A stretch of DNA of 47,906 nt from Clostridia bacterium. GTDB lineage: Bacteria; Bacillota; Clostridia; Oscillospirales; Acutalibacteraceae. The DNA lies in assembly GCA_017549285.1 (NCBI GenBank), contig JAFYVE010000051.1, positions 1-47,906 on the forward strand, given 5' to 3'. Numbering within the stretch: the first letter of the stretch is position 1; each line of letters begins with the position of its first letter. Positions 7,556-40,689 of the stretch are shown piece by piece. The translations under genes and the position numbers were made by a program. Under the pieces are notes generated by a model. It ran no database searches. It saw only the letters and a list, made by a program, of their open reading frames with translations, and had not been told where the DNA came from.

Positions 7556-7584
7556 ATGACAAATTTTCTTTGCAATGCTATAAT
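7556..7584 (+). promoter_or_regulatory. Sigma-A promoter of the LRR-dockerin gene
   Basis: ATGACA, 17-nt spacer, TATAAT. The -10 box lies inside a possible upstream extension of the reading frame, which argues for the start at 7615. Confidence 0.75.
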
Positions 7585-7614
7585 CAAATTACCAATAAAA
7601 AAGGAGTGTTAAAA

Positions 7615-18199: not shown

Positions 18200-18229
18200 T
18201 TGCATTTTCTGTGCGTGCTGATATATAAT
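18200..18229 (+). promoter_or_regulatory. Promoter of the M42-M42-GNAT operon
   Basis: TTGCAT, 18-nt spacer, TATAAT, about 30 nt before the start codon at 18260. An alternative start at 18200 would overlap this promoter and is rejected. Confidence 0.65.
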
Positions 18230-18259
18230 AGTATATATTATTTATACAAAGGTGTTTTT

Positions 18260-19282
18260 ATGGATATCAGAAAAATATGTGAACAGTTAACGCAGGGGGC
18301 AGGTGTTTCGGGTGCGTGTCACGTACTTTCGGAAGCTGAGAAACTGCTTGGTAAATATGCAGATGTCAGAAAAGATGCTCTCGGCAGTATTATCGGCACC
18401 GTGGGTGAAGGAAAAACTCATATTATGCTTGATGCGCATCTTGACAGAATCGGGCTTATTGTAACAGCTGTTGACGAATCAGGCTTTCTGCGTATTGACA
18501 AATGCGGCGGAACGGATGTGCGTGTACTTGCAGCGGCAGAAGTAACCGTATGGGGCAAAGAGCCCGTTTACGGTGTTATCACAAGCACTCCCCCCCATCT
18601 TTCAAAACCTGAAGATGCATCAAAAGCCCCGTCTTTTGACAGCATTTTTGTTGATACCGGATTGTCTTATGATAAACTCAAAGACATTGTTTCTGTCGGC
18701 GACAGAATTACAATCGACTCCCCCGTACGTTCACTTATCGGCACAAGAATTGCAGGTGCCGCACTTGATGACAGAATAGGTATGGCAGCACTTCTCAGGG
18801 TGCTTGATATAATAAAAGAGAAAAATCCTTCCGTAAAGGTTTCTGTTCTGTTTTCCGTTCAGGAAGAAACAACCGAAGCGGGCGGAAAAACAGGTGCTTT
18901 CGGAATTTCACCCGATGAAGCAATTGCCGTTGATGTAAGTTTCGGCACAGCTCCCGGAGTATCCGAACAGGAGGCAGGCAAACTCGGTGAAGGTGCTATG
19001 ATATGCATTTCACCGTCACTCTCACATCAGATGAGTAATGAGCTGATTGCTGTTGCAGAAGAAAATGGCATAAAGTATCAGACCGAAATCTGCCCCTCAC
19101 AGACCGGCACAAATGCTGATGTTATCTCCGTTACCAAAACAGGTATAAAGACAGGACTTGTTTCAATTCCTCTGCGCAATATGCACACACAGGCAGAAGT
19201 TGCCGACCTTAATGACGTTGAATCCGTTGCTCAGATTATTGCTGCTTATATTATTAAGAAAGGAGCAGAAAACAATGATTGA
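18260..19282 (+). CDS. M42 family metallo-aminopeptidase (first copy)
   Basis: 340 residues from the ATG at 18260 (AAAGGTG upstream). M42/glutamyl-aminopeptidase-type exopeptidases are cytoplasmic, dizinc and self-assemble into large tetrahedral particles that trim peptides. Motifs: MLDAHLDRIG (first metal His; the family usually has DAHxDEVG), ALDDRIGMAALL (bridging Asp), QEETTEAGGKTGAFG (catalytic Glu pair), IAVDVSFG, and RNMHTQAEV near the end (last metal His). All ligands seem present, but the R after DAHLD replaces the common Glu. It overlaps the second M42 gene by 8 nt. Confidence 0.9.
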   Translation: MDIRKICEQLTQGAGVSGACHVLSEAEKLLGKYADVRKDALGSIIGTVGEGKTHIMLDAHLDRIGLIVTAVDESGFLRIDKCGGTDVRVLAAAEVTVWGKEPVYGVITSTPPHLSKPEDASKAPSFDSIFVDTGLSYDKLKDIVSVGDRITIDSPVRSLIGTRIAGAALDDRIGMAALLRVLDIIKEKNPSVKVSVLFSVQEETTEAGGKTGAFGISPDEAIAVDVSFGTAPGVSEQEAGKLGEGAMICISPSLSHQMSNELIAVAEENGIKYQTEICPSQTGTNADVISVTKTGIKTGLVSIPLRNMHTQAEVADLNDVESVAQIIAAYIIKKGAENND

Positions 19283-20288
19283 TACAATTAAAGAACTCTC
19301 GCTCCTTTGCGGCACTTCAGGCAGAGAAACAACAGTAAGAGAATACATCATTTCAAAGATAGACGGAAAATGCGAATGGCACAAGGATGCACTCGGCAAT
19401 ATCATCGCATTCAAAAAAGGTAAAAATGAGGCAGCACACAAGGTTATGCTTGATGCCCATACCGATGAAGTAGGTGTGATAGTAACATTCATCACATCAG
19501 ACGGTATGCTGAAATTCTCACCCGTCGGCGGAATTGATACAAAAGTTCTTCTTGCAAGACAGATTGTTTTTGATAACGGAACAGTCGGTGTTGTGGGAAT
19601 CAAGCCCATTCACCTCTCAAAGGGTGATGAAAAAACAAAAATCCCCGATGCAGATTCACTTTATATTGATATCGGAGCCGCATCGAAAGAAGAAGCTGAG
19701 AAATATATAAAACCCGGTGACACAGGCGTGTTTATGTCTGATTTCGTTGAATTCGGTGACAATAAAATCAAGGGCAAGGCACTTGATGACAGAGTCGGCT
19801 GTGCCGTTATGCTTGATATGATAAATTCAGAGCTCCCCTACGATGCGTATTTTTCATTCTCCGTCCAGGAAGAAATCGGATTGAGAGGAGCTGCAACGTC
19901 TGCTTTCGGTATTGATCCCGAATATGCGATTGTTCTTGAAACAACAACTGCCGCAGACCTTATTGATGTCCCCGAACACAAAAAAGTATGCAAACTCGGT
20001 GAAGGTGCCGCTGTTTCGTTTATGGACAGAAGCACACTCTACAACAAAGAGCTTTTTGATACAGCATTCAGAGTTGCAGAAGAAAAAGACATAAAAGTTC
20101 AGCCCAAAACAGTTATTGCAGGCGGAAACAATGCAGGGGCTATCCATAAATCACGTGCAGGCATAAAAACACTCACAATCAACACTCCCTGCAGATATCT
20201 TCATTCAGCGTCATGCATATGCGATAAAAACGATATTGAAAGTGTAAGAAAACTTGCCGAAGCCGTTCTTTGTGAGTTCGCAAAATGA
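19275..20288 (+). CDS. M42 family metallo-aminopeptidase (second copy)
   Basis: 337 residues from the ATG at 19275, preceded by AAAGGAGCAG inside the end of the first copy; longer in-frame starts are antecedent frame noise. Motifs: MLDAHTDEVGVIVTF, KALDDRVGCAVML, QEEIGLRGAATSAFG, GGNNAGAIHKSRAG and CRYLHSASCI (last metal His). Closer to the family consensus than the first copy. Stop and next start overlap as ATGA, so the three genes are translationally coupled. The two copies may form mixed particles with broader specificity, which is inference. Confidence 0.92.
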   Translation: MIDTIKELSLLCGTSGRETTVREYIISKIDGKCEWHKDALGNIIAFKKGKNEAAHKVMLDAHTDEVGVIVTFITSDGMLKFSPVGGIDTKVLLARQIVFDNGTVGVVGIKPIHLSKGDEKTKIPDADSLYIDIGAASKEEAEKYIKPGDTGVFMSDFVEFGDNKIKGKALDDRVGCAVMLDMINSELPYDAYFSFSVQEEIGLRGAATSAFGIDPEYAIVLETTTAADLIDVPEHKKVCKLGEGAAVSFMDRSTLYNKELFDTAFRVAEEKDIKVQPKTVIAGGNNAGAIHKSRAGIKTLTINTPCRYLHSASCICDKNDIESVRKLAEAVLCEFAK

Positions 20289-21018: not shown

Positions 21019-23130
21019 TCAGAATGTTTCAAGCTTTGCTGACACACGAAGTATCTTTCTTGCATCAGCTGCATTTATCTTTTTGTCAAAATTTACATCA
21101 GCAGTTATTTTCTGCATATTATCAGGAGTTTCAAGCTTGGCTGAAATTCTCAGCGCAAGTCTTGCATCAGCTGCGGTTACTCTTCCGTCTGCATTTGTAT
21201 CACCCAACAAATAATCTGTTTTTGCAACAGTTTCTGTTTTTGTTGCCTTACAAGCAGTACAGGTATAGGTCTTAACACCTGTTTTTGTTGATGTAGGAAA
21301 TTTTGTTATAACTCCGCTGTCCCATTTATGACCGTGCGCAACATCGCCTGAAATACGGTACCGGTAAAGAGTTCTTGTTTCAAACTGAGTACCGTCTGTC
21401 TGAGAAACCGGCGTATCTGACCATTCAGACCAGCCTGTGTTTCGGGTAAACTTATACATCATATTATAAGTTGTAACCGTTGTGCTTTTTACGGGAATTG
21501 CAGACTGCCACCAATATGTCTGATTACAGGCATTACTGTTATAGAAATCAACTGCTCCCTTAGCAGTCAGACCTTTATATTCGGTACTGTAAAATGCGTG
21601 AAACACATTGTAAGGACGCTGTGAACCTGCATCCCAATCCATATAAGAATCACTGATAAGACGGTTAATCGGAGAATTGCCGTTATAATATGATGAACAC
21701 CAATGCCAGTAAATATAGCCTGATGTCACGGTATCTCCCACAACAATCTTTGTTGTTGCATTTTCTGATGAAACAGGGGCGGGTTTGTTATACTGATTAT
21801 AAAGAGCATTATTCCTGCTGAATCCTGCAGGAAATGAAGAAACATAAGAAACCGTTGTCTTCTTACCTTCACCCCATTCTTTTCCCACACGGGTCCAACC
21901 GGCAATTGAAGGTTCAGAGGAAAGCTTTGTTTCCTTTTGCATATAACGGTACTGTTTTTTTGTTTCTGTTTTCGACTCTGCAACATCAGGTTTTTTCGTT
22001 GACCACTCAGACCATACGGGGTTTTTACTTGCATCTTCACTATATGTATGCTTACAGTTTTTGCAACTGTATGAAACCTTTTCGTTTTCAGTACAGGTTG
22101 CAGGAATAACCGATTTCACATAATTATGTCCGAATGCCGCAATTTCCTGAGTTTCTGAAAATGCACATTTACTGCAGGAATATATTTTTACACCTTTTTT
22201 TGTACAAGTCGGCTGTATTGTGACAGCACCTTTATTGAGCGTATGCTTTGTTTCAAATATAAAACGACAATCGGCATTTGAATTAAGTGTTCCTGAAAAA
22301 CTCTGTGAACCCGTAACAGTAAAACAACCTGTTGTTCTGACATCCTTGATTTCGTATACCGTGCCTTTTGAATGCGTTTTAAAGTAATCTGTTACATCAT
22401 TTGCAACGAGAGAACCGTTAATATAAACATCGAATGTTGCAATACCATCCAGAACACCTTTGTCTGCACCGTCAAGCTTTGCATTGACATCGAGTGTATA
22501 TGATGATGAGGGATTCCATACATAAGGAGCACTGTAAAGAGTCATAGTTGTCATAGCGTAAATATCAAGAGTTCTGCCCCATCTGATTTCACAGCAGGAA
22601 CCGATATTGCTTTCACCGAGTGTGACAACACTTCCCGAAACACCTGTAACAAATACCCAATGACCGTATGTAAGATCTGCACCGAGTCCCGTGTAATGAA
22701 TAACATCACCGGGTTTTACTTTTGAAACCGCAGTATTTTTGTTTGATGTCTGTCCCCAGCTTTCAACATTCGTTGCACCCGGGTATGCAAGGTCTGCCAT
22801 AAGGAATGAAAATCCCTGACACTGCGTTGCCTTATTATAATATGTATTGCAGTCGTAGTATCCCGGAGGTGCCACACCGCCCTGATAACAGACATAATCC
22901 GAAACGGAAAAAAGCATCTGTTCCATTGAACCGCAGTTGCCGTAATGAATCCAACCCTGCCCAGCAACATATCCGTGTCCTTGCCCTGCACGATGATTCC
23001 AATGTTTTCCGGAAGGAAAAGATGCCTGCATCTGAGCAAGAGTCCATCCTTCCTCGGCACTGACAGTTATTGCGGGCACACAGCAGAACACAACTGCAAG
23101 ACAAAGAATGAAACTCAAAATTTTTCTCAT
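21019..23130 (-). CDS. Secreted CHAP/NlpC-like cysteine hydrolase with C-terminal dockerin
   Basis: 703 residues with signal peptide (1-25, SAEE). Residues about 30-200 resemble a CHAP or NlpC/P60 papain-like fold: Cys104 in QCQGFSFLMADLAY, KPGDVIHY, His157 in YGHWVFVTGV, then a polar residue in LGESNIG. Next come a beta domain (about 205-290), two Cys4-type modules (CTKKGVKIYSCSKC; CTENEKVSYSCKNC), two W-S-E-W-S modules and a final CTACKATKTE unit. The dockerin ends the protein (GDTNADGRVTAADARLALR; ADVNFDKKINAADARKILR). Likely cleaves peptidoglycan or protein outside the cell. It starts 12 nt after the phosphoesterase stop, with AAGAGGT, so it is the last gene of the 28207-21019 operon. Confidence 0.82.
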   Translation of the reverse strand: MRKILSFILCLAVVFCCVPAITVSAEEGWTLAQMQASFPSGKHWNHRAGQGHGYVAGQGWIHYGNCGSMEQMLFSVSDYVCYQGGVAPPGYYDCNTYYNKATQCQGFSFLMADLAYPGATNVESWGQTSNKNTAVSKVKPGDVIHYTGLGADLTYGHWVFVTGVSGSVVTLGESNIGSCCEIRWGRTLDIYAMTTMTLYSAPYVWNPSSSYTLDVNAKLDGADKGVLDGIATFDVYINGSLVANDVTDYFKTHSKGTVYEIKDVRTTGCFTVTGSQSFSGTLNSNADCRFIFETKHTLNKGAVTIQPTCTKKGVKIYSCSKCAFSETQEIAAFGHNYVKSVIPATCTENEKVSYSCKNCKHTYSEDASKNPVWSEWSTKKPDVAESKTETKKQYRYMQKETKLSSEPSIAGWTRVGKEWGEGKKTTVSYVSSFPAGFSRNNALYNQYNKPAPVSSENATTKIVVGDTVTSGYIYWHWCSSYYNGNSPINRLISDSYMDWDAGSQRPYNVFHAFYSTEYKGLTAKGAVDFYNSNACNQTYWWQSAIPVKSTTVTTYNMMYKFTRNTGWSEWSDTPVSQTDGTQFETRTLYRYRISGDVAHGHKWDSGVITKFPTSTKTGVKTYTCTACKATKTETVAKTDYLLGDTNADGRVTAADARLALRISAKLETPDNMQKITADVNFDKKINAADARKILRVSAKLETF

Positions 23131-23142
23131 AATTTTTACCTC

Positions 23143-24339
23143 TTATACTTCAACTTCTGTTTTCAGACTGTTATCAGAAACTGTTCTCCAGAAGCCTCTT
23201 GCGACAACTTCGACAGTGTATTTGCCGGTATCAACATCTTTGATTTCGGCTGTGATTGTTTCGGGCATATTGTAAAGATAATAATGCGACCAGACGGAAA
23301 TCTGTTTTTCAATATTGCCTTTTTCATTCCTGAATCTGATTATGTAATCATTAACTCTCTCTTCACCTTTTGCCTGAGAGAAAACAACCTTTACGCCGTC
23401 TTCTGTCTTTTCTGCTGTGATAAATGCATTATCATCAAAATGAGTGGGCTTTTCGGAGCCTGCTCTTCTTTCTGTGTAAATGAATGTTGACGGGTCAGAG
23501 GGAACATCAACTTCCCAGGGCTCACGGAAGAAATTCTCTGTGAGAATATCAACGGGATAAACTCTGACTCTGTTGTTTTCATCGGCTTCAACGATAAGAT
23601 ACTGTGCACATTCGTCCTTGTCTGAGGGGATTGTGCCGCCGATTTTGCCGAATTCATCCATTTCAAAATAGCTGAGTGAGCCTGTACCGAAAGATGTGAA
23701 ATATTCCTGATGTACACTTCTTGGGTCATTGATGGGACAATGTGAATGACCTGAGAATGTGATAAGCTGCGGATAATTTGAAAGGATTTCATAAAGCTCA
23801 TCCTCACCCCAGTAGATACTGCCGTAAACCGTGTCAGTCACATGGGGATGCTGGAAGAAGAAAACTGGCTTTTCAAGTGAGTCTGCTGCAGCCTCTTTGA
23901 GTGCAGTTGCAACAAATTCCTGCTCAGCTTCTTTGAAATGGCATCCGTTTGTGCAGGAAGCTCCGACAATATGAAAACCGTTGATTATCTTATGTGAGAA
24001 GTAATGCATACCGAAGATTCTCTGCAGTTTTTCCTTTGCGGCTTCTTCACCCTCACCGTGATATTCGTGACTTGCCATAAAGAGTGTGACATCGGTTTCG
24101 GGCTTTAATTTTTCATCAAGGACTTCTTTGAAATTGAGCATCTCCTGCTCTCTGCCGCTGTTTGCGAAGTCACCGACTGCAACATAAGCGTCAATTTTCT
24201 TATATTCTGAATTTTCTGCGTAATTATATGCAAAATCAAGACCTTTACGGAGTCTTGCAAGCTCAACGCAGTCTTTGTTTTCCTTTACGTGAATGTCACT
24301 CATGACAATCATTCTGAATTTAGGGGTAAAATCAGACAT
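23143..24339 (-). CDS. Calcineurin-like metallophosphoesterase
   Basis: 398 residues. Metal-site motifs in order: MSDIHV (D15, H17), VAVGDFANSG, FFFQHPHVTD, and FSGHSHCPIND. The normal GNH(D/E) motif is replaced by MASHEYHG, so the histidine and acidic residue stay but the metal-binding Asn position is Ser. A C-terminal beta domain of about 130 residues follows the catalytic part. No signal peptide, so cytoplasmic. Substrate unknown. It lies 58 nt after the amidotransferase, with a repeat-type hairpin (24371-24389) in the gap, and 12 nt before the CHAP-dockerin gene. Confidence 0.87.
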   Translation of the reverse strand: MSDFTPKFRMIVMSDIHVKENKDCVELARLRKGLDFAYNYAENSEYKKIDAYVAVGDFANSGREQEMLNFKEVLDEKLKPETDVTLFMASHEYHGEGEEAAKEKLQRIFGMHYFSHKIINGFHIVGASCTNGCHFKEAEQEFVATALKEAAADSLEKPVFFFQHPHVTDTVYGSIYWGEDELYEILSNYPQLITFSGHSHCPINDPRSVHQEYFTSFGTGSLSYFEMDEFGKIGGTIPSDKDECAQYLIVEADENNRVRVYPVDILTENFFREPWEVDVPSDPSTFIYTERRAGSEKPTHFDDNAFITAEKTEDGVKVVFSQAKGEERVNDYIIRFRNEKGNIEKQISVWSHYYLYNMPETITAEIKDVDTGKYTVEVVARGFWRTVSDNSLKTEVEV

Positions 24340-24370
24340 TTTCTATCCGCCTTTCTGAATTTAAAGCAAC

Positions 24371-24389
24371 GGACGCCCATTGGGCGCCC
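24371..24389. repeat. GC-rich 3-nt-loop hairpin inside an operon
   Basis: GGACGCCC-ATT-GGGCGCCC, 8 bp with one G-U pair in RNA, followed by CCTACA. Same build (8-bp stem, triloop) as the array units at 1-99 and 34892-34910; its CCTACA edge also bounds the element at 34788-34956. No T-run, so a terminator is unlikely, although it may reduce downstream expression. Confidence 0.65.
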
Positions 24390-24397
24390 CTACATTT

Positions 24398-26242
24398 TTA
24401 ATTTTCGACAAAATACTTGTTGTACCAGAGAATAAATGAATAAACCGACCAGATTCTCTTCATATTCTTCTCTTTGTCATTCTTGTGGTTATCGAGAAGA
24501 GCCATAATATAATCTGTATCAAAGAACATTTCTGCAGTTTCGCTTGTGAATGCTTCTTTGACCATATTATAGAATTTATCTCTCTTGAGCCAGTCGTTAA
24601 GAGGTGTAAGGAAGCCTGTTTTGGGCATACTTGCTGTCTTTTCGGGCACCTGACTCAGAGCTGCACCACGAAGAGCAATCTTTGTCTGCTCCTTTGAAAC
24701 CCTGTACTTTGTAGGAATTGAGAGAGCCACTTTCAGCATCTCTTTATCAAGGAACGGAACACGGAGTTCAAGTGAATTAGCCATTGACATTCTGTCTGCC
24801 TTTACAAGGATATCCTGAACAAGCCAGGTCTGCATATCAACATACTGCATTCTTGTAACATCGTCAACATTTGTGCACATATCAAAATAAGGCTTTGTGA
24901 ATGTTGCGGGATTTTCTGCAGGGATATCGGGGTCAAGGACTGCATCTCTTTCATCGTGATTGAAAACATAATTATTTCTTACAAAATTTTCTTCAATACC
25001 CTCTGCACCTCTCATAAGGAAGCGTCTGCCGTGAAAACGGGGAAGATTTTTCGCAACACCTGCCGCAGCCTTACGAAGACCGAGCGGCAACTTCTGATAA
25101 TTTTCAAAATTGAGAGGGTCTTTATAATAATGATAACCGCCGAAAAGTTCGTCTGCACCCTCACCTGAAAGCACAACCTTTACCTGCTCGGAAGCAAGTT
25201 TTGTAAGGAAGTAAAGAGCGATTGCAGAGGGGTTGGGCAGAGGCTCGTCCATATAATACTGAACAGTGGGGGCAGCCTCAAAGAATTCATCTGCAGAAAT
25301 CTTCTTGATGTAGTTATCCACACCTGCTGTTTTTGCAAATTCCTGAGCGTATTTCAGCTCTGAATACTTTTCTTCTTCATAGCCGACAGAGAAAGTACGG
25401 ACTTTGTTGTTACGGCTCATTTCCTTTACGACATAGCTTGAGTCAACACCGCTTGAAAGGAAACAGCCGACCTCAACGTCTGCAATGCCGTGAACAGTTG
25501 TTGAATCACGGAATGTTTCTGCAATAATCTTTTCCCATTCTTCGAGATTCTTGCTCTCATCAATGCTGTATTCCATTTCGTAATACTTACCCTGAGTCAT
25601 TTCGCCGTCTTTCCATTCGAAATATGAAGCTGGGGCAAGCTTATATACATTTTTGAAGAGAGTTTCGTTTGAGGGAATATATTCAAAACAGAGATATTCG
25701 GGAATTCTGTCACGGTTAAGCTCCTTTTCAAATCTGGGATTTGAAAGGAATGACTTTATTTCAGAACCGAACATAAATGTGCCGTTCTTGATGTAATAGA
25801 AGAAAGGCTTGATGCCGAAAATATCTCTTGCACCGAAGAGTTTCTTCTCAACCTTGTCCCAGATAACAAAAACGAACATACCGCGGAGTTTGGGAAGAAG
25901 GTCCTTACCGTATTCCTCGTAACCGTGGATAAGGACTTCTGAGTCTGTATGGGTATAGAATTCATGTCCCTTTGCAAGAAGGTCTTCACGAAGGGATTGG
26001 AAATTGTAAATTTCACCGTTGAAAACAAGCACCTTTGACTTGTCTTCATTATAAATGGGCTGACTTCCGCCCTCAAGGTCGATGATACTCAGTCTTCTGA
26101 AACCGAGTGACACATCATCGTCCACATAATAGTCATCCATATCGGGGCCTCTGTGGACAATTCTGTCTGCCATAGCCCTTACGGTTTTATTGTTGTAATC
26201 TGCATCTGCAGTTTCATTGAGAAATCCTACAAATCCGCACAT
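24398..26242 (-). CDS. asnB: Asparagine synthetase (glutamine-hydrolysing), AsnB/AsnH type
   Basis: 614 residues. N-terminal class II glutaminase domain with catalytic Cys2 (MCGFVGF), RGPD, RRLSIIDLEGG and FNGEIYNF. The C-terminal ATP-pyrophosphatase domain has the P-loop LSSGVDSSYV and SGEGADELFGGYHYY. AsnB makes asparagine from aspartate. Relatives act on other carboxylates, including L. lactis AsnH, which amidates the D-Asp cross-bridge of peptidoglycan. The start is 1 nt after the racemase stop (TGAAATG), so it is coupled to the D-aspartate-type genes. That makes an AsnH-like wall role attractive, but sequence alone cannot separate it from free-asparagine synthesis. Confidence 0.9.
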   Translation of the reverse strand: MCGFVGFLNETADADYNNKTVRAMADRIVHRGPDMDDYYVDDDVSLGFRRLSIIDLEGGSQPIYNEDKSKVLVFNGEIYNFQSLREDLLAKGHEFYTHTDSEVLIHGYEEYGKDLLPKLRGMFVFVIWDKVEKKLFGARDIFGIKPFFYYIKNGTFMFGSEIKSFLSNPRFEKELNRDRIPEYLCFEYIPSNETLFKNVYKLAPASYFEWKDGEMTQGKYYEMEYSIDESKNLEEWEKIIAETFRDSTTVHGIADVEVGCFLSSGVDSSYVVKEMSRNNKVRTFSVGYEEEKYSELKYAQEFAKTAGVDNYIKKISADEFFEAAPTVQYYMDEPLPNPSAIALYFLTKLASEQVKVVLSGEGADELFGGYHYYKDPLNFENYQKLPLGLRKAAAGVAKNLPRFHGRRFLMRGAEGIEENFVRNNYVFNHDERDAVLDPDIPAENPATFTKPYFDMCTNVDDVTRMQYVDMQTWLVQDILVKADRMSMANSLELRVPFLDKEMLKVALSIPTKYRVSKEQTKIALRGAALSQVPEKTASMPKTGFLTPLNDWLKRDKFYNMVKEAFTSETAEMFFDTDYIMALLDNHKNDKEKNMKRIWSVYSFILWYNKYFVEN

Positions 26243-26243
26243 T

Positions 26244-26954
26244 TCAATTCACCTTTACTTTCTTTCCGCAAAGTTCAATACTTCTGATTGCCAATACTTC
26301 AAGAGAATCGACAATATCGTTACGCACTAAATCAAAATCTTTATTTATAACTGAAAGCTCCGTACAGCCGAGAGCCACCGCATCACAGCCGTCAGCTTTC
26401 ATATTTTTAATTATTTTAAGAAACTCTGTTATATTAATTTCTTTACCTGCTTTGACCTGATTATATATTATATTCATCAGCGACTGCTCGTCCTGAAGTG
26501 AGGGCACAGCCCATTCAATGCCGTGTTTTTCGCACATTCTCTGATATGAGCCTGCCGAAATCGTGCCCTTTGTTGCAAGGATTCCGAGCTTTTTCACCCC
26601 GGATCTTTCCTTTGCAAAAACGACGGTTTCTTCAATGATATTGAGCATAGGGATTGTGATATTGTTCTGAATCTGCTCATAGAAGAAATGCGCCGTGTTG
26701 CAGGGCATAACGACATAATCCGATCCCGCTGCCTGAAGTTTTTTTGCATCTTCAACCATTATGGGAAGCGGATTCGGTTTGCTTGCGTCAAGTATAAAAT
26801 CAGTTCTGTCGGGTATGGCGGCGTGGTTGAGGACTATCATTGAAATATGGTCCTGATCTTTTTCAGCTTCGGTCATCTTGACAATCATATCCATAAAATA
26901 GACCGTTGCAAGAGGCCCGAGCCCGCCTAAAATACCGAGTGTTTTTTCACTCAT
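26244..26954 (-). CDS. Aspartate/glutamate racemase family protein
   Basis: 236 residues. A cofactor-free racemase with the two-cysteine mechanism: C85 in VVMPCNTAHFF and C197 in ALGCTELSV, both present. The N-terminus GILGGLGPLATVYFMD matches the aspartate-racemase branch (RacD/RacX) rather than MurI. It would supply D-aspartate, or D-glutamate, in the cytoplasm. Its start overlaps the stop of the ATP-grasp ligase by one base (TAATG), and the asparagine-synthetase-like gene follows 1 nt after its stop. The order ligase-racemase-amidotransferase matches a D-Asp cross-bridge pathway. Confidence 0.9.
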   Translation of the reverse strand: MSEKTLGILGGLGPLATVYFMDMIVKMTEAEKDQDHISMIVLNHAAIPDRTDFILDASKPNPLPIMVEDAKKLQAAGSDYVVMPCNTAHFFYEQIQNNITIPMLNIIEETVVFAKERSGVKKLGILATKGTISAGSYQRMCEKHGIEWAVPSLQDEQSLMNIIYNQVKAGKEINITEFLKIIKNMKADGCDAVALGCTELSVINKDFDLVRNDIVDSLEVLAIRSIELCGKKVKVN

Positions 26955-28207
26955 TACTGTGTCACCTTGTTCTTTAATTCGGCTTTTTCCTGTTTTTCAA
27001 CTTTCAAGTATTTTCTGTACTGATTGATGTATGCAGCAAAGACATAGAAGGCTCTCTTCGGACTCATATCGGGCTTATAGAAAAGAGGATAACTCACTTT
27101 ACCTGAGAACCAGAGTTTTCTTACTTTCTTGCGGAGTTCCTTATTCTTGAGGTAACGCATAATGATGCCGTAAGGAACAACCGTAAAGAGGTTTTCTCTG
27201 TCTGCTACGGTATATTCAAGCTCCTTGCCGTAAATAAGGTCGTCAACAATCCATTTTACGGTGTTGAAGCCGCTGCCTGTTACGTAGAAATTACTTCTGC
27301 CGAGTCTTACGTTGATTTCAAAGAAATTATATGTTCCGTTTCTTTCGTCATACTTGATATCGAAGTTTGCAAAGCCTGTGTAACCGATATCTTCAAGGAA
27401 ACGTGTTGCAGCTTCAACAATGCCGTTTTTGTCAACCTCATTGATGATTGCAACGGGGTTGCCGATTGCAGAGGGTGTATGATCTTCAAGAAGACAATGG
27501 CCGAGTGCAGCAAACCTGACCTTTGAATTTCTGTCACAATAGCAGGTAAGAACTCTCATATTTGAGTCATCACCGGGAATGCAGTCCTGAATAAGGAACT
27601 TATAATCATAACTTGATGTTTCAAGATTCTTAAGCATTTCTCTGAGGTCTGCTTCGTTATAGAAACGGAAAACCTTCTTCTTGCCGGGGAATTCAGCATA
27701 GTGATAGAGCGCAGAGTTTGCAGTCTTTGCAATTACGGGATAAGGAAAATCAAAGTTCAGCTCGTTTTCTTCACCGCAGTTATATACAAATGTCTTGGGA
27801 TGGTCAATACTGAGTCTGTCACAGATTTCATAGAACTTGTCCTTGAGAACGATTTCATCCATAAGCTCCTTATCAATATAAGGTATGATGTAGTATTCAC
27901 CGAGGACATCCTTGTTATCAACAAAGTTACGTACATAGAAGTCACCGCAACCCATAAGGATGAGTTTCTTCTTACCTTTGAACTCCTTACCGATTTCAAC
28001 AAGCTTTTCAACAAGATATGCTTCGTCGTCAAGACCGGGAATAACTCTGTTTTCAACAAGTTTGCTTTCAGAGATTATTCTTGCTCTTCTCTGGCTTACA
28101 ACAAGTGATTTGATGCCGTATTCCTCGTGGAATGTTCGCACAAGGCTGTAGCAGGTGATGTCTGCACCGAGGATGACGGGCATAAATTCTCTTTCATTGA
28201 GTTTCAT
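26954..28207 (-). CDS. ATP-grasp ligase, D-aspartate-ligase-like
   Basis: 417 residues. The N-terminal FMPVILGADITCYSLVRTFHEEYGIKS is typical of the carboxylate-amine ligases that include the D-aspartate ligase of enterococci. The central ATP-grasp core shows PYPVIAKTANSALYHY (ATP lysine strand), FLIQDCIPGDDSNMRV and FFEINVRLGRSNFYV (Mg-binding Glu and Asn). The C-terminal 100 residues are basic. In E. faecium this enzyme adds activated D-Asp to the Lys side chain of UDP-MurNAc-pentapeptide. The coupled racemase supports D-Asp as substrate here, which is inference. RBS AAAGGAAG; own promoter at 28248-28275. Confidence 0.83.
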   Translation of the reverse strand: MKLNEREFMPVILGADITCYSLVRTFHEEYGIKSLVVSQRRARIISESKLVENRVIPGLDDEAYLVEKLVEIGKEFKGKKKLILMGCGDFYVRNFVDNKDVLGEYYIIPYIDKELMDEIVLKDKFYEICDRLSIDHPKTFVYNCGEENELNFDFPYPVIAKTANSALYHYAEFPGKKKVFRFYNEADLREMLKNLETSSYDYKFLIQDCIPGDDSNMRVLTCYCDRNSKVRFAALGHCLLEDHTPSAIGNPVAIINEVDKNGIVEAATRFLEDIGYTGFANFDIKYDERNGTYNFFEINVRLGRSNFYVTGSGFNTVKWIVDDLIYGKELEYTVADRENLFTVVPYGIIMRYLKNKELRKKVRKLWFSGKVSYPLFYKPDMSPKRAFYVFAAYINQYRKYLKVEKQEKAELKNKVTQ

Positions 28208-32551: not shown

Positions 32552-34441
32552 ATGAATAATAAACTCTCAAGGAAGGTAGTTTCCTGCATTCTTGCAGTAG
32601 TGATGCTGTTCAGCATTACATCAACTGCTTTTGCCGCTAAAAATGATTATAACGGCAATCCAGTGATCGTTATCAACGGTATCGACCACAACCCCATCTA
32701 CGCAAATCCTGATGCTCTCAATGCTAAACAGATGTTCCCTCCCTCAGATATGACTGTTTACGGTCTTCTTACAGAGATGTTTGTAAGCGGCATTGTTTCA
32801 CTTGCATCAAATGATTACAACCAGGTAATGAATTTCTTCGTAGGTTCACAACTCTATGATATTATGGAAAATATCAGCCTCAATCCCGACGGCACTTCAA
32901 AGAGCGAAAACATCGGACCTATCAAGTATGATCATTCTCTTGCTTACTACTACACAGATGTAGAACGTTATGAGAAGATTGCAGGTAACATCGGTATCGG
33001 TCTCTGCGACAGAATCGGTATGGACAACGTTTACGTTTTCACATACGACTGGAGAATTGACCCTGTTGCAAACGCTGCTGACCTCAACGAATTCATTCAG
33101 ACAGTTAAAGCAAACTCACGCAAAGACAAGGTTTCAATTATTGCTGAAGGCTACGGCGCAACAATCGGTCTTGCTTACCTTGCAGAATACTATGAAGATG
33201 CAACAACAGATATTGACAACTTTGTAACTGTTAACTCAGCTGCTATGGGTACATCACTTATCGGTGACATCTACACAGGCAGACTTATGCGTCAGTACAA
33301 CGAGCTTCAGAATGCAACAAGTGCATTCATCCGTTTCACAAACGACTTCTCTGATAACCCGATTACATGGTTCTCAACATGGCTTACAAACTACATTCTC
33401 AATAAGAACTGGGAAACTCAGGACCTTATCGCTCAGTGTATCACAATGATGGGTCACGTTACAGATCCTCTCTATGACAAGTACCTCAGAGATATGCTCA
33501 AGAACTACATAGGCCTCTGGGCAATGGTTCCCGTTGAATATTATGAAGAAGCTATGGACTTTATGTTCATGAGCGACGAATCAACAGAAGGCGATTACAA
33601 CAGCGACTTCCAGGAAAAGGTTCAGCTTTACAAGAACTACCAGTCAAGCGCTGCTGAAATCCTCAACAAGGCTAAGTCAGAAGGCATCAACATCAACGTT
33701 GTTTCTTCATGGGACCTTCAGCTTATCCCCATCGGTGACAACAAGGCTTCAGACGAAGAAATTTTCGGTCTTTCAGCACAGAGTGACGGTCTTATCGATA
33801 CTTACTTCTCAAGCTTCGGTTGTTACACAATTCCTCTTAACGACGTAGGCGCTGCTATTGATAACAAGGATCAGAGAAATAAGGAAGGCGAATGTGAAAA
33901 CCATAACCACATGAACGCTGTTTATGATATCCTTGATCCCGAACACAATCTCGGCGGTATCGCTCATTATCTTGATGCTTCAACCTGTGCTCTTCCTGAT
34001 AACACATGGTTCATCAGAAACATGAAGCACGGTTCATTTGAAACACGCGGCAACTCAATCGATTTCCTTGCATATCTTCTCACAGCAGATAAGACACTTG
34101 ATGTTTTCTCAGCTGACGGTCTCTACAAGCAGTTTATGAGCTGCAACAGATATCTTGATCCCATCTATATTGAAGTCCCCGATTTCGATACATCATCCGG
34201 CAAATATATGCTCGGTGACGTTAACCTTGATGGTAAGATTTCTGCAGCAGACGCAAGACTTGCTCTTCGTATCACAGCAAGACTTGAAAACTATCCTGCA
34301 GCTGATAGCGTTGTATTCAAGAACACAGACGTTAACGGCGACGGTGTGATTACTGCAGCTGATGCAAGAATCATCCTCAGAGTTTCTGCAGGTCTTTCAG
34401 ATTTTGAAGACTTCAAAAACACAACAGACGTTGACAAATAA
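32552..34441 (+). CDS. Secreted alpha/beta-hydrolase-like protein with dockerin; nucleophile Ser missing
   Basis: 629 residues. Signal peptide 1-29 (AFAA). The body resembles lipase/LCAT-type alpha/beta hydrolases: opening strand PVIVINGIDHNP, YVFTYDWRIDP before a long helix, then VSIIAEGYGATIGLAYLAEYY at the nucleophile elbow. The elbow reads E-G-Y-G-A: where a G-x-S-x-G serine is expected there is Tyr201, so the standard catalysis should be lost. A block STCALPDNTWFIRN near the end is shared with the paralog at 38846-40654 (STCAFPDTTWFFKN), whose elbow keeps its serine. A dockerin ends the protein (GDVNLDGKISAADARLALR; TDVNGDGVITAADARIILR). RBS AAGGAGG. Possibly a binding protein derived from a lipase. 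Confidence 0.82.
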   Translation: MNNKLSRKVVSCILAVVMLFSITSTAFAAKNDYNGNPVIVINGIDHNPIYANPDALNAKQMFPPSDMTVYGLLTEMFVSGIVSLASNDYNQVMNFFVGSQLYDIMENISLNPDGTSKSENIGPIKYDHSLAYYYTDVERYEKIAGNIGIGLCDRIGMDNVYVFTYDWRIDPVANAADLNEFIQTVKANSRKDKVSIIAEGYGATIGLAYLAEYYEDATTDIDNFVTVNSAAMGTSLIGDIYTGRLMRQYNELQNATSAFIRFTNDFSDNPITWFSTWLTNYILNKNWETQDLIAQCITMMGHVTDPLYDKYLRDMLKNYIGLWAMVPVEYYEEAMDFMFMSDESTEGDYNSDFQEKVQLYKNYQSSAAEILNKAKSEGININVVSSWDLQLIPIGDNKASDEEIFGLSAQSDGLIDTYFSSFGCYTIPLNDVGAAIDNKDQRNKEGECENHNHMNAVYDILDPEHNLGGIAHYLDASTCALPDNTWFIRNMKHGSFETRGNSIDFLAYLLTADKTLDVFSADGLYKQFMSCNRYLDPIYIEVPDFDTSSGKYMLGDVNLDGKISAADARLALRITARLENYPAADSVVFKNTDVNGDGVITAADARIILRVSAGLSDFEDFKNTTDVDK

Positions 34442-35036: not shown

Positions 35037-36839
35037 TTATCTTGCCTGTAAGTTCATTTCAATCATTTCAAGACAAGCTTTCTTGACTTTCTTTTCAACC
35101 TTTTCTTTTCTTTCGATTGCATCTTCACCGAACTGCTTTTCAAATTCAGTCTGCTTTTCTTCCCAATCTTCTGAAATGAGGTCTGTAAGAATTGATTCAT
35201 ACCAGTCAGCATTTTCTTCTGCGCCAACGTAGTACATTACGTGGTAACCATACTGAGTTTCAACGATACCTGTTGAACCGGGAGCTCTTGTTTCACCTTC
35301 GTAATCGCCTTCGCAGAATGCCCAGTCTTCAAATTCGGGAACATACTGTCCGTCGTTTGCCATATGTTCAATAAGACCGCCTGTACTCTTTGAACCTGTA
35401 TCATCTGAAAGTTTGCTTGCGAGTTCACCGAAATACTGTTCATCAGCAACGTCGCTCATATTTTCCTTGATATATTCATTATAACTTGCAAGGATTGATT
35501 CTGCTTCGCTTTCACATTCAGCTTTTACGCTTGCAGCAAGTGTAACTTCTTCAGCTTCACCTGTAACATCTTCACCGCTTGCAGTTTCTGTCTTAGCTTC
35601 GGGGAACTTAACAAGGATATGACGTACGCTTGTGTGCTTTGTTTCATCTCTGAAGGGAGCACCGATAGCATAAATAATGTAAACAGTCTTACCATCCTGG
35701 CTGAGGAAATACTTCATATCGCCTGCCTGTCTTACATAGTTACCGGCATCGTTTGTTTCATAAAGCCAGTTTGCAGCATCTTTGCTGACATTTGATTCAA
35801 TTGCATCCTTTGTAATCTTCTGGAGAAGAGTTGCACCATCCTGTTTGTATTCCTCATAAGCTTCATCTTTTTTATCAGCAAACTGAAGAACAACCTTCTT
35901 GAATGTTTCTTCTGAATAGTTAGCTTCCGCCTTTACAGCATCAATGAACTTCTGAGCTTCAAGTTCTTCTGCAACGGGTTTCTTTTCTGTTTTTGCTTCT
36001 GATGTGGGTTCTGCAGCAGATGTCTTTTCAGCATTTTCTGTTGCCTTTACATCAATTGTGAACCATCTGAAACCAACAACGTCATACTTTGACTTATCTT
36101 TTGCATAGATTTCGTTTACTTCATCAGCTGAGTAGCTGTCTTTGAGTTCTTCCTGAATCTGCTCCTGATAAATTGAAACAAGCTGCTGTTCATTAAGAAT
36201 CTTTGTGAAAAGAGCTTCGTCTACACCCTTACCGTACTGCATCTGAAGGAAGTTTGAAAGAGAGTAGTTGCCGAGGTATGCTTTATAGCTTTCAAGAGTT
36301 TCGTTAATCTGTTTTTCAGCTTCTTCTGTAAGCTCAACACCTGCTTCAACAGCAGCGTTGTAATATCTCTTAATGTTAGCCATTGTATCGATAGCCTGAT
36401 TGAGGAACTGTTCATCCCATGTGATTTCGTTGCCGTCTTCATCCTTGGTCTTCTGATCAGCAGGAGAAAGAGATACATCGTAACCTGTAAGCATTTTACC
36501 GTAACCTTCACCGTAGTTCTGGTCGTATGATGCAGCTGTCTGGTAAACATTGTTATACATCTGCATATAGTAGCAGCTAAGCTCACTCATTGAGTAGCTT
36601 TCGCCGTCAATTACAATTGCCTTTGTAAGCTTCTGGGGTACAGCAAAGAAGCTGAGAATACCTGCGAGAAGTGCAATAACAACAGCTACAGCAACAACAG
36701 CACCGAAAACTTTACCTGCAGCACTTTTTGCAGCGGGATTTGCGTGACCTTTCTTCGCATTGTTCTTTGTCTGCTTTGCGATTCTTTCTTTTCGTTCCTG
36801 ACGATACGCGTCAAGAGCTTCTTTTTCGTTCTTATCCAT
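35037..36839 (-). CDS. Membrane-anchored SurA/PrsA-type foldase with parvulin (PpiC) domain
   Basis: 600 residues from the ATG at 36839 (GAAAGGTG upstream; the in-frame GTG 9 nt earlier overlaps the binding site). A basic cytoplasmic tail (1-43) and a membrane helix (about 44-66) lead to an extracytoplasmic SurA_N-like helical region (about 70-265). A linker rich in Lys/Glu/Thr follows. The C-terminal PpiC-type domain starts near residue 400 (HTSVRHILVKF), is interrupted by an acidic insert, and resumes with GGLIEHMANDGQYVPEFEDWAF and GIVETQYGYHVMYY. These are parvulin hallmarks. Role: folding of secreted proteins by prolyl isomerisation and chaperoning. The anchor is a transmembrane helix, not the lipid anchor of B. 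subtilis PrsA. Confidence 0.88.
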   Translation of the reverse strand: MDKNEKEALDAYRQERKERIAKQTKNNAKKGHANPAAKSAAGKVFGAVVAVAVVIALLAGILSFFAVPQKLTKAIVIDGESYSMSELSCYYMQMYNNVYQTAASYDQNYGEGYGKMLTGYDVSLSPADQKTKDEDGNEITWDEQFLNQAIDTMANIKRYYNAAVEAGVELTEEAEKQINETLESYKAYLGNYSLSNFLQMQYGKGVDEALFTKILNEQQLVSIYQEQIQEELKDSYSADEVNEIYAKDKSKYDVVGFRWFTIDVKATENAEKTSAAEPTSEAKTEKKPVAEELEAQKFIDAVKAEANYSEETFKKVVLQFADKKDEAYEEYKQDGATLLQKITKDAIESNVSKDAANWLYETNDAGNYVRQAGDMKYFLSQDGKTVYIIYAIGAPFRDETKHTSVRHILVKFPEAKTETASGEDVTGEAEEVTLAASVKAECESEAESILASYNEYIKENMSDVADEQYFGELASKLSDDTGSKSTGGLIEHMANDGQYVPEFEDWAFCEGDYEGETRAPGSTGIVETQYGYHVMYYVGAEENADWYESILTDLISEDWEEKQTEFEKQFGEDAIERKEKVEKKVKKACLEMIEMNLQAR

Positions 36840-36881
36840 GATATTCACCTTTCAAAATTATTTTAATTCCGAATACACTAT

Positions 36882-36910
36882 ATTTTACTATATTTTTGTA
36901 TAATATACAA
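36882..36910 (-). promoter_or_regulatory. Promoter of the foldase gene ending at 35037
   Basis: TTGTAT, 17-nt spacer, TAAAAT on the minus strand, in the 84-nt gap between the two foldase genes. The -35 is part of a small palindrome. Confidence 0.45.
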
Positions 36911-36923
36911 GTGTTTTTTTGAA

Positions 36924-38663
36924 TTATCCTGCATTCTGAGCTGCAATCTGCTTGAAAGCTGCAACAGCATTGTTGATTACTTCTTCATCAGCAACTATCT
37001 TATCTTCATAGCTTGCGATGAATTCATCTTCCCACGCTTTGAGTTCAGCTTCAAGAAGTGAATTGTATACTGACTGATACCATACGGGCTTTTCTGAAAT
37101 GCCCATCATATAAACGATGTAGTATGCGCCGTCTTTGCCTTCAACAAGAGCATAGTCGCCTTCTTTTCTGCCTTCTTCACTCATCCACTTTTCAACTTCC
37201 GCATCGTGTGAACCGTCTGCGAGTGTGTCTTCATATGTGAATGCCTTGACAAGACCGCTTACATCTGCATTTGCATCTTCTTCAAACTTTGCAAAATCTT
37301 CAGCAGACTTGCCTGTCTTTTCAAACTCAGCAAAGAGTGATGTTGCCTTTGATTTTGCCTGAAGCTTGAGTTCTGCAGCACTCTTGATTGAATCGTCTGA
37401 GCTGGGAGTAATTTTTACATAATCGATTGAAACAGGAATGAATGAATTTCTTGCAGGAGCATCATTCACATAAAGAACATAAACAACTCCGCCTGCTTCA
37501 ACAGATTTTACTGCGTCTTTACCGTTGACATAAGCATCTTCTGCATCTGTTTCAAAAATCCAGTCAGCTGCTTCTTTGTTGAAGTTTGCAGTTATTGCTT
37601 CCTTTGAAAGACCTGAAAGAGAATCTGAAATTGCTTCATCATCACCCGTCACAGCCTTGACTGCGTCTGCAAAAGACATGCCGTCCTTGACCTTTGCAAT
37701 TACTGTGTTTGCATTCTTCTGAGCATTTTCATCAGTTGCATCAAAATAGCAGTAAGTTACATTTGCGAGGTCATATGTGACTTTATTTGCTTTATAAGCC
37801 TTTTCCACCTTATCTTCAACGTCTGATGCCTTGAAGTCATCCTGAATACCTGTGAGCATATCTTCGTAGTATTTATATGCAACAGCCTGTTTTTCAAGGT
37901 ATGTTCTAAGCATATCAAGAGTGTAACCCTTGCCGAAATTCTTTGCCACATAGTCATCAACAGGAACACTTGAAGCCTCGGCAGCCTGAGTATATGCATT
38001 CATATTCTCATCAATCTGAGCCTTATCTTCTTCACTGAGCGTATAACCGGCCTTGACAGCCTGATTATAGAGAGCGCTTGTGTGTGAAAGCTGATTGAGC
38101 GTATCATCCTTGATCTGACTTTCGGGAATCTGTGAATAGTAGTATGAATAGTAATTATAGTAATAAGCATCAACATATGCAAACCAATAAAGATATTCAC
38201 CTACAGTAATTTCATCTTCACCGACAGTTACAGCAATCTCTTCGTGATCAATTCTTGAACCTGCCGTACTCTTCACGATAACTGAAACGAAGAAAGCAGT
38301 TGCAGCAAGAAGAAGTGCAACAAGAATAACAAGGAGCGCTACTGCACCTTTGCTCTTTTTCTTTTTAGGAGCAGGAGTTTCTTCAGTTGTTTCATTTTCA
38401 ACTTCATCAGCTGTTGCTTCTTCAGCAAACTCTTCTGATTCCTCTGCATTTTCTTTAACTGCCACTTCATCAGCAGGTTCATCTTCAGCAACCACTTCTG
38501 ATTCCTCTGCATTTTCTGCAACAGTCACTTCGTCAGCTGTTACTTCTTCAGCAACCTCTTCTGACACCTCCGCATTTTCTTCAACCTTAACTTCATCAGC
38601 AGGTACAATCTGCTCTTCTTCAGGTTCATTTGCGGGGATTGGATTAATCTTATTTTCGTCCAT
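36924..38663 (-). CDS. Second SurA/PrsA-like foldase with acidic 21-residue repeats in its cytoplasmic tail
   Basis: 579 residues from the ATG at 38663 (GGAAGGTG upstream). The cytoplasmic tail contains three and a half 21-residue acidic repeats beginning at residues 21, 42, 63 and 84, each starting (P/T)ADEV and rich in Glu/Ala/Val. A Lys cluster (100-105), a membrane helix (about 107-131) and a Tyr-rich stretch (YYYNYYSYYYS) follow, then a helical SurA_N-like domain. The C-terminal part aligns loosely with the neighbour's PpiC domain (ADWIFETDAEDAYV, VVYVLYVNDAPARN, AYYIVYMM), but the RHILVKF strand is replaced by VSIDYVKITP, so isomerase activity is doubtful. Probably a paralog working as a holdase. 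Confidence 0.82.
   Translation of the reverse strand: MDENKINPIPANEPEEEQIVPADEVKVEENAEVSEEVAEEVTADEVTVAENAEESEVVAEDEPADEVAVKENAEESEEFAEEATADEVENETTEETPAPKKKKSKGAVALLVILVALLLAATAFFVSVIVKSTAGSRIDHEEIAVTVGEDEITVGEYLYWFAYVDAYYYNYYSYYYSQIPESQIKDDTLNQLSHTSALYNQAVKAGYTLSEEDKAQIDENMNAYTQAAEASSVPVDDYVAKNFGKGYTLDMLRTYLEKQAVAYKYYEDMLTGIQDDFKASDVEDKVEKAYKANKVTYDLANVTYCYFDATDENAQKNANTVIAKVKDGMSFADAVKAVTGDDEAISDSLSGLSKEAITANFNKEAADWIFETDAEDAYVNGKDAVKSVEAGGVVYVLYVNDAPARNSFIPVSIDYVKITPSSDDSIKSAAELKLQAKSKATSLFAEFEKTGKSAEDFAKFEEDANADVSGLVKAFTYEDTLADGSHDAEVEKWMSEEGRKEGDYALVEGKDGAYYIVYMMGISEKPVWYQSVYNSLLEAELKAWEDEFIASYEDKIVADEEVINNAVAAFKQIAAQNAG
38392..38605 (-). repeat. 63-bp tandem repeats encoding the acidic cytoplasmic tail
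   Basis: About three and a half imperfect 63-bp units, seen on the plus strand as recurring TCTTCTGATTCCTCTGCATTTTCT-like blocks. They encode the (P/T)ADEV acidic repeats; the opposite-strand Ser-rich frame is an artefact of them. Confidence 0.8.
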
Positions 38664-38708
38664 TAAGAACACCTTCCGTTTCTGTATAAAATAATCCATA
38701 ATATAGTT

Positions 38709-38737
38709 ATTATACTATATTTTTCATTATGTTACAA
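38709..38737 (-). promoter_or_regulatory. Promoter of the acidic-tail foldase gene
   Basis: TTGTAA, 17-nt spacer, TATAAT on the minus strand. Confidence 0.7.
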
Positions 38738-38790
38738 TACTTTTTTTAAATATTATAATATATTATAAATCACAATCATTGAAGTTTTAT

Positions 38791-38824
38791 TAAAAAAGAA
38801 AAAGCCGTTCCGGAGAACGGCTTT
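38791..38824 (-). terminator. Terminator of the secreted hydrolase gene
   Basis: 10-bp perfect stem AAAGCCGTTC/GAACGGCTTT (38801-38810 with 38815-38824), loop CGGA, then TTCTTTTTTA on the minus strand. Confidence 0.92.
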
Positions 38825-38845
38825 AATTTATTGATTCAATAAAGA

Positions 38846-40654: not shown

Positions 40655-40689
40655 TTCGTATACCTCCAAAGTGGTTATAATACAGTCTA

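Follow-up and report, generated by a model that had tools for sequence, protein, structure and literature searches.

The window analyzed here is the whole of a 47,906-nt stretch of DNA from a Clostridia bacterium of the Acutalibacteraceae (assembly GCA_017549285.1, contig JAFYVE010000051.1), and the subject of the analysis is a run of five minus-strand genes that a preliminary description had taken for a pathway building a D-aspartate (D-Asp)/D-isoasparagine (D-isoAsn) cross-bridge in peptidoglycan. All five open reading frames (ORFs) and their joins were found where that description had placed them. From upstream to downstream, the run comprises an ATP-grasp carboxylate-amine ligase, predicted to be a D-aspartate ligase (LIG; 28207-26954, 417 aa), an aspartate racemase (RAC; 26954-26244, 236 aa), a glutamine amidotransferase of the AsnB/AsnH type, predicted to amidate D-Asp to D-isoAsn (ASN; 26242-24398, 614 aa), a lineage-specific calcineurin-like metallophosphoesterase (24339-23143, 398 aa) and a secreted dockerin protein with a possible N-terminal cysteine amidase domain (23130-21019, 703 aa). 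LIG and RAC overlap by one base, RAC and ASN are separated by one base, and the two remaining gaps measure 58 nt (ASN to phosphoesterase) and 12 nt (phosphoesterase to secreted protein). The promoter and terminator previously assigned to the run were both recovered: a promoter-like site at 28275-28248 (TTGACA-16-TACAAT, with a TG ahead of the second hexamer) scores 11/12, the highest among the 31 sites of this kind in the region (shuffled sequences give a mean of 18.2, with a standard deviation of 3.6), and a terminator-like hairpin with 16 pairs (21010-20975) closes the gene run. These signals frame the run, but a GC-rich hairpin on the minus strand (24367-24389, starting TGTAGGGGCG, with the terminator-like hairpin scored at 24389-24371), either terminator-like or a repeat element, lies within the 58-nt gap, and a single five-gene transcript is therefore not demonstrated. 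A degenerate form of this hairpin occurs in 3 of 258 loci (once in L071, twice in L109, and in L132, the window's own stretch), and the hairpin may be a dispersed repeat.

The conservation of this arrangement was addressed in a scan that took a single genome from each species. It identified 167 ligase relatives, and the best 80 of these 167 loci were analyzed for downstream gene order (tblastn, same strand, gaps of at most 1500 nt). The window's host is a metagenome-assembled genome (MAG), and the closest kin with a name are MAGs assigned to Clostridia, Oscillospiraceae, or Ruminococcaceae. LIG, RAC, and ASN are consecutive in 35 of the 80 loci, with ligase identities down to 50%, and the recurrence of this order on so many contigs makes it more than a chance association. 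The racemase adjoins the ligase in 59 loci, whereas the third member of the cassette can be either the amidotransferase (38 loci) or a second MurE-like gene (MurE2; 10 loci, in the order LIG-(RAC)-MurE2), both being present in none. The ligase is followed by ASN with no racemase in between in three loci, and stands alone in 16, six of them near a contig end. The conserved unit is hence the first three genes, LIG-RAC-ASN. The five-gene set envisaged by the preliminary description was rejected as a unit, since the phosphoesterase follows LIG-RAC-ASN in nine of the 80 loci (on its own in eight, together with the dockerin protein in one more) and the dockerin protein in that one alone, in close kin only. 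Among the matches listed from the open-licence literature, no description of a LIG-RAC-ASN set in Clostridia was found. Within the window's family the ligase has a patchy distribution, with a match at E 1e-3 in 9 of 60 genomes (the window's own counted) and below 1e-90 in six. In two distant loci, a BRO-N domain gene comes after the amidotransferase, as identified by domain scan in L018 (12819-13655), where it stands between the amidotransferase and the phosphoesterase, and by clustering only in L095 (9205-10056).

Several lines of evidence link the first two genes to D-Asp. The ligase yields weak matches to CPSase_L_D2 and ATP-grasp in Pfam, and a profile built from 18 relatives matches the VanA ligase (1e4e) with an E of 7.6e-4. 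Over 410 columns it shares 35% identity with a protein of Latilactobacillus curvatus that is annotated as a carboxylate-amine ligase, the gene for which sits 99 nt after a racemase. In a quickly built tree with SH-aLRT support only and several long-branch rows, the window ligase falls within a 48-row clade that includes the ligases of Coriobacteriales on a long branch, and the tree also takes in L. crispatus and L. fermentum. The ligase of Subdoligranulum variabile TSDC17.2, a carrier of LIG-RAC-ASN, groups in this tree with the MurE2 clade. In support of the preliminary description, the window ligase falls in one family with the Lactobacillus ligases compared (L. curvatus, L. crispatus, and L. 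fermentum), all three of which we take to be D-Asp-bridge species. L-Lys-D-Asp or L-Orn-D-Asp walls are given for five Limosilactobacillus species (PMC8346765), and L-Orn-D-Asp bridges for Olsenella uli, an actinobacterium of the family Coriobacteriaceae (PMC3035265). The racemase, 40% identical to its L. curvatus counterpart, scores 234.7 bits with the aspartate racemase model TIGR00035 (cut-off 93.1), while the glutamate racemase model TIGR00067 remains below its cut-off (45.3 vs. 146.65), in support of an aspartate-type enzyme. It also keeps Cys85 (in CNTA) and Cys197 (in CTEL), presumably its catalytic cysteines.

The same data bear on the possibility that the ligase adds a different D-acid, such as D-Glu or a cysteate-like compound, or that it acts away from peptidoglycan, on a small peptide or on another envelope polymer. 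The racemase also exceeds the cut-off of the cysteate racemase model CuyB (216.9 vs. 190), the ligase family also holds proteins from Psychrobacillus, the walls of which we assume to be of the L-Orn-D-Glu type, and the set itself contains no classical peptidoglycan gene. Nonetheless, the aspartate racemase model gives the higher score, the ligase family is paired with a MurE-like gene in the 10 LIG-(RAC)-MurE2 loci, and related AsnB genes lie next to a gene annotated as MurE in Collinsella and next to murC in L. curvatus, so that we regard a substrate of this kind as very unlikely.

The third gene encodes a protein with GATase_7 (PF13537) and Asn_synthase (PF00733) domains that starts with MCG and hence presents Cys2, and no other AsnB-like gene of the genome matches at E 0.001. 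It is 41% identical to Listeria AsnB, about 42% identical to its homologues in L. crispatus and L. curvatus, and 45-54% identical to the AsnB enzymes of family members lacking the ligase. In a first tree, a single 31-row clade brings together the ligase-linked clostridial enzymes and one enzyme from G056, a genome in which ASN and the ligase lie on different contigs, while L095 and Subdoligranulum fall outside this clade and group with rows from the Lactobacillus group, Collinsella, and Planococcaceae. The enzymes of ligase-lacking members and Listeria AsnB stand apart from the ligase-linked clade. The acceptor loop of the window enzyme reads MDEPLPNPSAI, and the place of what we take to be the Asp-binding residues of E. 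coli AsnB suggests that this loop would contact the acceptor. Its Asn is shared by all rows that come from ligase-bearing genomes, 51 of 51 (44 clostridial rows, with two genomes represented twice, Subdoligranulum, L. crispatus, and five Bacilli), of which 47 lie beside the ligase and four elsewhere in the genome (L135, G115, G149, and G164). The same position is occupied by Asp in Listeria and in every one of the 30 rows whose genomes gave no ligase match (20 clostridial rows, with no strong match, and 10 from Bacilli, with none at E 1e-40); four distant rows, at about 30% identity, lie outside this count. Plasmid copies, the records of which are mostly labelled asnB, were read in addition, the ligase status of their genomes lying outside the count: those of L. 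curvatus, Planococcus, and Collinsella carry Asn, and three from further Bacilli (Anoxybacillus, Peribacillus, and Carnobacterium) carry Asp. ASN adjoins the ligase also in L. crispatus and in two Bacilli genomes (G166 and G180). The loop Asn, shared with ligase-bearing genomes, favors the earlier assignment of this gene as an AsnB-type amidotransferase for D-Asp, and we predict it to be a D-Asp (to D-isoAsn) amidating enzyme.

Alternatively, the amidotransferase could amidate meso-diaminopimelate (mDAP), like AsnB in B. subtilis and Listeria, and merely share an operon with a D-Asp ligase. Both belong to the same superfamily, with the 41% identity noted above and the same extended loop region, the genome is of the mDAP type, and in Clostridia the bulk of the mDAP is described as amidated (PMC4015370). 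Furthermore, the ligase-bearing genomes G008, G043, G044, and G056 do not have the approximately 50% identical AsnB that 20 of the 54 family members with no strong ligase match possess, as if it had been replaced. Against this, the window enzyme lies apart from Listeria AsnB, for which mDAP amidation has been shown by experiment (PMC8554201), and has Asn rather than Asp in the loop, the ligase-adjacent enzyme of L. crispatus has the same Asn, and one genome (G023) encodes both a ligase-linked enzyme (60% identity) and one of the other kind (51%). On balance, mDAP amidation appears improbable as the function of this gene. The extra loop given elsewhere as a mark of mDAP amidases (PMC8554201) was considered as a discriminating feature and discarded, since by eye it is present alike in rows from the window, from ligase-lacking genomes, from Lactobacillus, and from Listeria.

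The identity of the acceptor hinges on MurE. The genome has one MurE (537 bits; the next match, at 101 bits, is the neighboring MurF-like gene), with the motifs TSDNPRTEDP and LAGKGHETYQ, that is, the DNPR and GKGHE motifs of the mDAP type. Within DNPR, the residues that bind the carboxylate of mDAP are Asn and Arg; the MurE of Staphylococcus aureus, an L-Lys enzyme, reads DNPA (PMC3829189). A clearly mDAP-type MurE, combined with direct cross-links, was what the preliminary description had set against its own interpretation, and the first half of that combination is what the genome holds. Relatives conform to the same picture. Among 16 that carry ASN beside the ligase (searched at E 1e-80, a threshold at which a weak second copy could escape notice), a single MurE is seen in 12, always DNPR, one has two (DDPH and DNPR), and in three none was found. 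Five ligase-bearing family members each gave one MurE at E 1e-60, in every case DNPR (family member G044 is the same genome as relative G068 and is counted in both sets), and three relatives with LIG-RAC only have DNPR, DNPR, and DNSR. The consistency of this pattern over more than a dozen MAGs makes a binning error unlikely. Of 22 ligase-lacking family members searched, 21 yielded a MurE, the best copy being DNPR in 13 and DNSR in eight. DNSR is seen in ligase-lacking L248-L254 and L256, and also in the ligase-bearing genome of L029 (L118), and two ligase-lacking genomes, L257 (G007) and L258 (G003), have a second MurE with DNPD or DDPD rather than DNPR.

Ligase-bearing genomes outside the window type present a different configuration. 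Four LIG-(RAC)-MurE2 genomes were examined, and all four have two MurE matches, the ligase-adjacent one being EDPG and the other DNPR in three and unreadable in one; the ligase-adjacent MurE2 is likely a separate Lys-type stem module. MurE2 comes directly after the ligase or racemase in L090 (10956-12500, Clostridium paraputrificum), L073-L076, L078-L081, and L086, with EDSG in L086 and EDPG in the others. Of 101 Bacilli genomes sampled, 11 carry the ligase, and their best-scoring MurE is not DNPR in any of the 11 (DDPR in four, DDLN in four, DDPG in two, and DNPA in one), with most second copies lying outside this motif count; G083 has a DNPR copy in addition, and G166 and G180 have one MurE match each, non-DNPR. 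Among 19 Bacilli without the ligase, MurE is DNPR in 17, DNPA in one, and DDPR in one. The window type is thus an exception, with a D-Asp-type ligase where only a DNPR MurE is found.

Given the likeness of the ligase and racemase to those of L. curvatus, the gene order, and the loop Asn, D-Asp ligation followed by amidation is likely. In the proposed pathway, the racemase would convert L-Asp to D-Asp, and the ATP-grasp ligase would activate D-Asp with ATP and attach it to the free side-chain amine of stem residue 3. The amidotransferase would then turn D-Asp into D-isoAsn, with glutamine as the nitrogen donor, in line with the order reported for lactic acid bacteria, where amidation follows ligation, D-Asn being no substrate of the ligase (PMC4155827). 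As the one MurE found carries DNPR, residue 3 would here most likely be mDAP. The expected product is then A4gamma-like, a branch or bridge of the form mDAP-(D-isoAsn), where lactic acid bacteria have a Lys-(D-isoAsn) bridge. A FemAB-type bridge enzyme was considered as an alternative source of the bridge, and a genome search returned no match. What is observed here is homology and gene order, and all three steps, with their substrates, products, and acceptor, are read from homology; on these grounds, we give roughly even odds to LIG-RAC-ASN being a peptidoglycan-branch cassette that takes D-Asp to D-isoAsn on an mDAP stem. The preliminary description had proposed the same chemistry as in E. 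faecium and L. lactis. The ligase family, racemase type, loop residue, and three-gene order bear out its reading in part, but identical chemistry is not supported, given the mDAP-type MurE (DNPR/GKGHE), and the pathway does not simply reproduce that of lactic acid bacteria.

Besides the cysteate racemase score and the Psychrobacillus proteins, several observations weigh against a D-isoAsn branch on mDAP. The ligase and racemase occur with neither ASN nor a second MurE in 16 of the 80 loci, four of them near a contig end. A plasmid copy from Sporosarcina psychrophila, again with the ligase status of its genome outside the count, has Asp in the loop though it groups with Asn-bearing rows. In a tree built without the loop, the loop residue changes three times, and two of two independent pairs behave as expected, too few for significance; an Asp row, L182, from a genome without a ligase match, joins next to the window clade. 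The larger tree, from a set without a verified AsnH, places the other clostridial AsnB rows between the window clade and the Lactobacillus rows. Regarding the stem, an Arg placed in S. aureus MurE conferred no mDAP activity (PMC3829189), and the motif alone hence does not fix MurE specificity. The search threshold applied to the relatives could conceal a second copy, as mentioned above, and the window's MAG is 88% complete, such that a second MurE could be missing from it. Lastly, the non-DNPR MurE of all 11 ligase-bearing Bacilli places an mDAP acceptor out of pattern.

Two of these observations, the MurE types of the ligase-bearing Bacilli and the limited power of the motif, speak for a classical pathway in which the DNPR MurE of the window genome would add L-Lys (or L-Orn) and the cassette would build an ordinary Lys-D-isoAsn bridge. 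This pathway would also accommodate the presence of Coriobacteriales ligases in the clade of the window ligase, on their long branch, and the DDPG-type MurE of two of the three such genomes read (L126 and L127). It is at odds with both mDAP motifs in the genome's own MurE and with the DNPR or DNSR best copies of the ligase-lacking kin. Furthermore, an Atopobiaceae genome with the ligase (L113) has DNPR as its best MurE, and other Clostridia encode an EDPG/EDSG MurE beside the ligase, which would be needless if the DNPR enzyme served. We therefore deem the classical pathway unlikely, albeit less so than the two alternatives discussed earlier.

An mDAP-linked D-isoAsn branch would relate to several known systems. 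In L. lactis, the D-Asp ligase and the racemase are encoded in one operon, and the AslA/Aslfm and RacD systems of L. lactis and E. faecium (PMC4155827) resemble the window genes in having an ATP-grasp ligase beside an aspartate racemase, a link drawn here through the homologous L. curvatus pair. These systems use L-Lys stems, whereas the single MurE found in the window genome carries DNPR/GKGHE and thus departs from the L-Lys/L-Orn acceptor of that class; the window ligase is accordingly described as AslA-like, and not filed under the Lys-D-Asp pathway. The window amidotransferase and AsnH (L. lactis, L. casei; PMC4155827, PMC3885529), compared by description, have the LtsA/AsnB family in common. 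The loop Asn of the window enzyme recurs in its L. crispatus and L. curvatus counterparts, and its gene, differently from AsnH, is packed tightly together with those of the ligase and racemase. The mDAP amidotransferase AsnB of Listeria and B. subtilis (PMC8554201) is of the same family, yet the Listeria enzyme has the loop Asp and a separate tree branch. A4gamma walls with mDAP are described in the Dermabacteraceae, with aspartic acid in one strain (PMC6090031); they combine mDAP at residue 3 with an acidic amino acid, as predicted here, although those organisms are Actinobacteria. Finally, the LIG-(RAC)-MurE2 cassette exemplified by C. paraputrificum (L090) relies on the same ligase family, mostly with a racemase, and differs in its third gene, an EDPG/EDSG MurE-like ligase where the window type has an amidotransferase.

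The last two genes of the run are local additions outside the conserved chemistry. The phosphoesterase matches PF00149 (E 8.2e-7) and retains the majority of its metal-binding motifs (SDIH, GD, HPH, and GHSH), with SHE in place of what we take to be the usual GNHE. The phosphoesterase-asnB-ligase neighborhood of L. crispatus seemed to speak for a conserved phosphoesterase, a reading rejected because BLASTP detected no meaningful similarity between the two phosphoesterases. The fifth protein has a Pfam dockerin domain (E 6.6e-9), in agreement with the preliminary description, but the CHAP-like hydrolase also postulated there was not substantiated: Pfam gave no CHAP match, neither CHAP nor NlpC rose above cut-off, and Amidase_6 (E 0.016) remained below it. 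Solved-structure searches with the phosphoesterase and with the N-terminal domain of the fifth gene returned nothing useful. Among the 80 loci, a full-length homologue of the dockerin protein occurs solely in L020 (66%). The genome has five cohesin matches, making dockerin proteins ordinary in it, and no weight is given to the suggestion of a hydrolase acting on the modified wall. Two more dockerin proteins are encoded in the window (7570-8733 and 32552-34441), one of them with BspA-type leucine-rich repeats. Elsewhere in the window, 35037-40669 holds three consecutive large minus-strand genes, the first with a PPIC-type foldase domain and the other two with sub-cut-off matches only (SurA_N-like, DUF915), and 18200-20288 holds two adjacent, similar-looking plus-strand ORFs that by eye resemble tandem M42-type aminopeptidases.

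Taken as a whole, the cassette is real and conserved, and likely a D-Asp/D-isoAsn branch pathway that varies the known lactic-acid-bacterial system. Amidation of D-Asp influences how lactic acid bacteria resist lysozyme and nisin and how they autolyze (PMC4155827), and the loss of asnH in L. casei abolished its immune-activating capacity (PMC3885529). For 10 of 14 gut Clostridia genera, the table of a 2024 review has no peptidoglycan entry (PMC11382707), and a gene set predicting a D-Asn bridge on mDAP would aid the prediction of wall types from MAGs. If it holds, the loop Asn/Asp would also provide a cheap marker to tell bridge-type from mDAP-type amidotransferases. Gut Clostridia with the cassette may build an undescribed wall variant. 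In its broadest form, which we put forward tentatively and with less confidence than the cassette itself, the proposal is that rumen and gut Clostridia have an undescribed peptidoglycan in which mDAP carries a D-isoAsn bridge, made by a D-Asp cassette with two interchangeable partners, which are, in the C. paraputrificum type, a private non-DNPR MurE and, in the window type, a bridge-specific amidotransferase working on an mDAP stem, with the loop Asn or Asp marking bridge- and mDAP-amidating AsnB enzymes, respectively.

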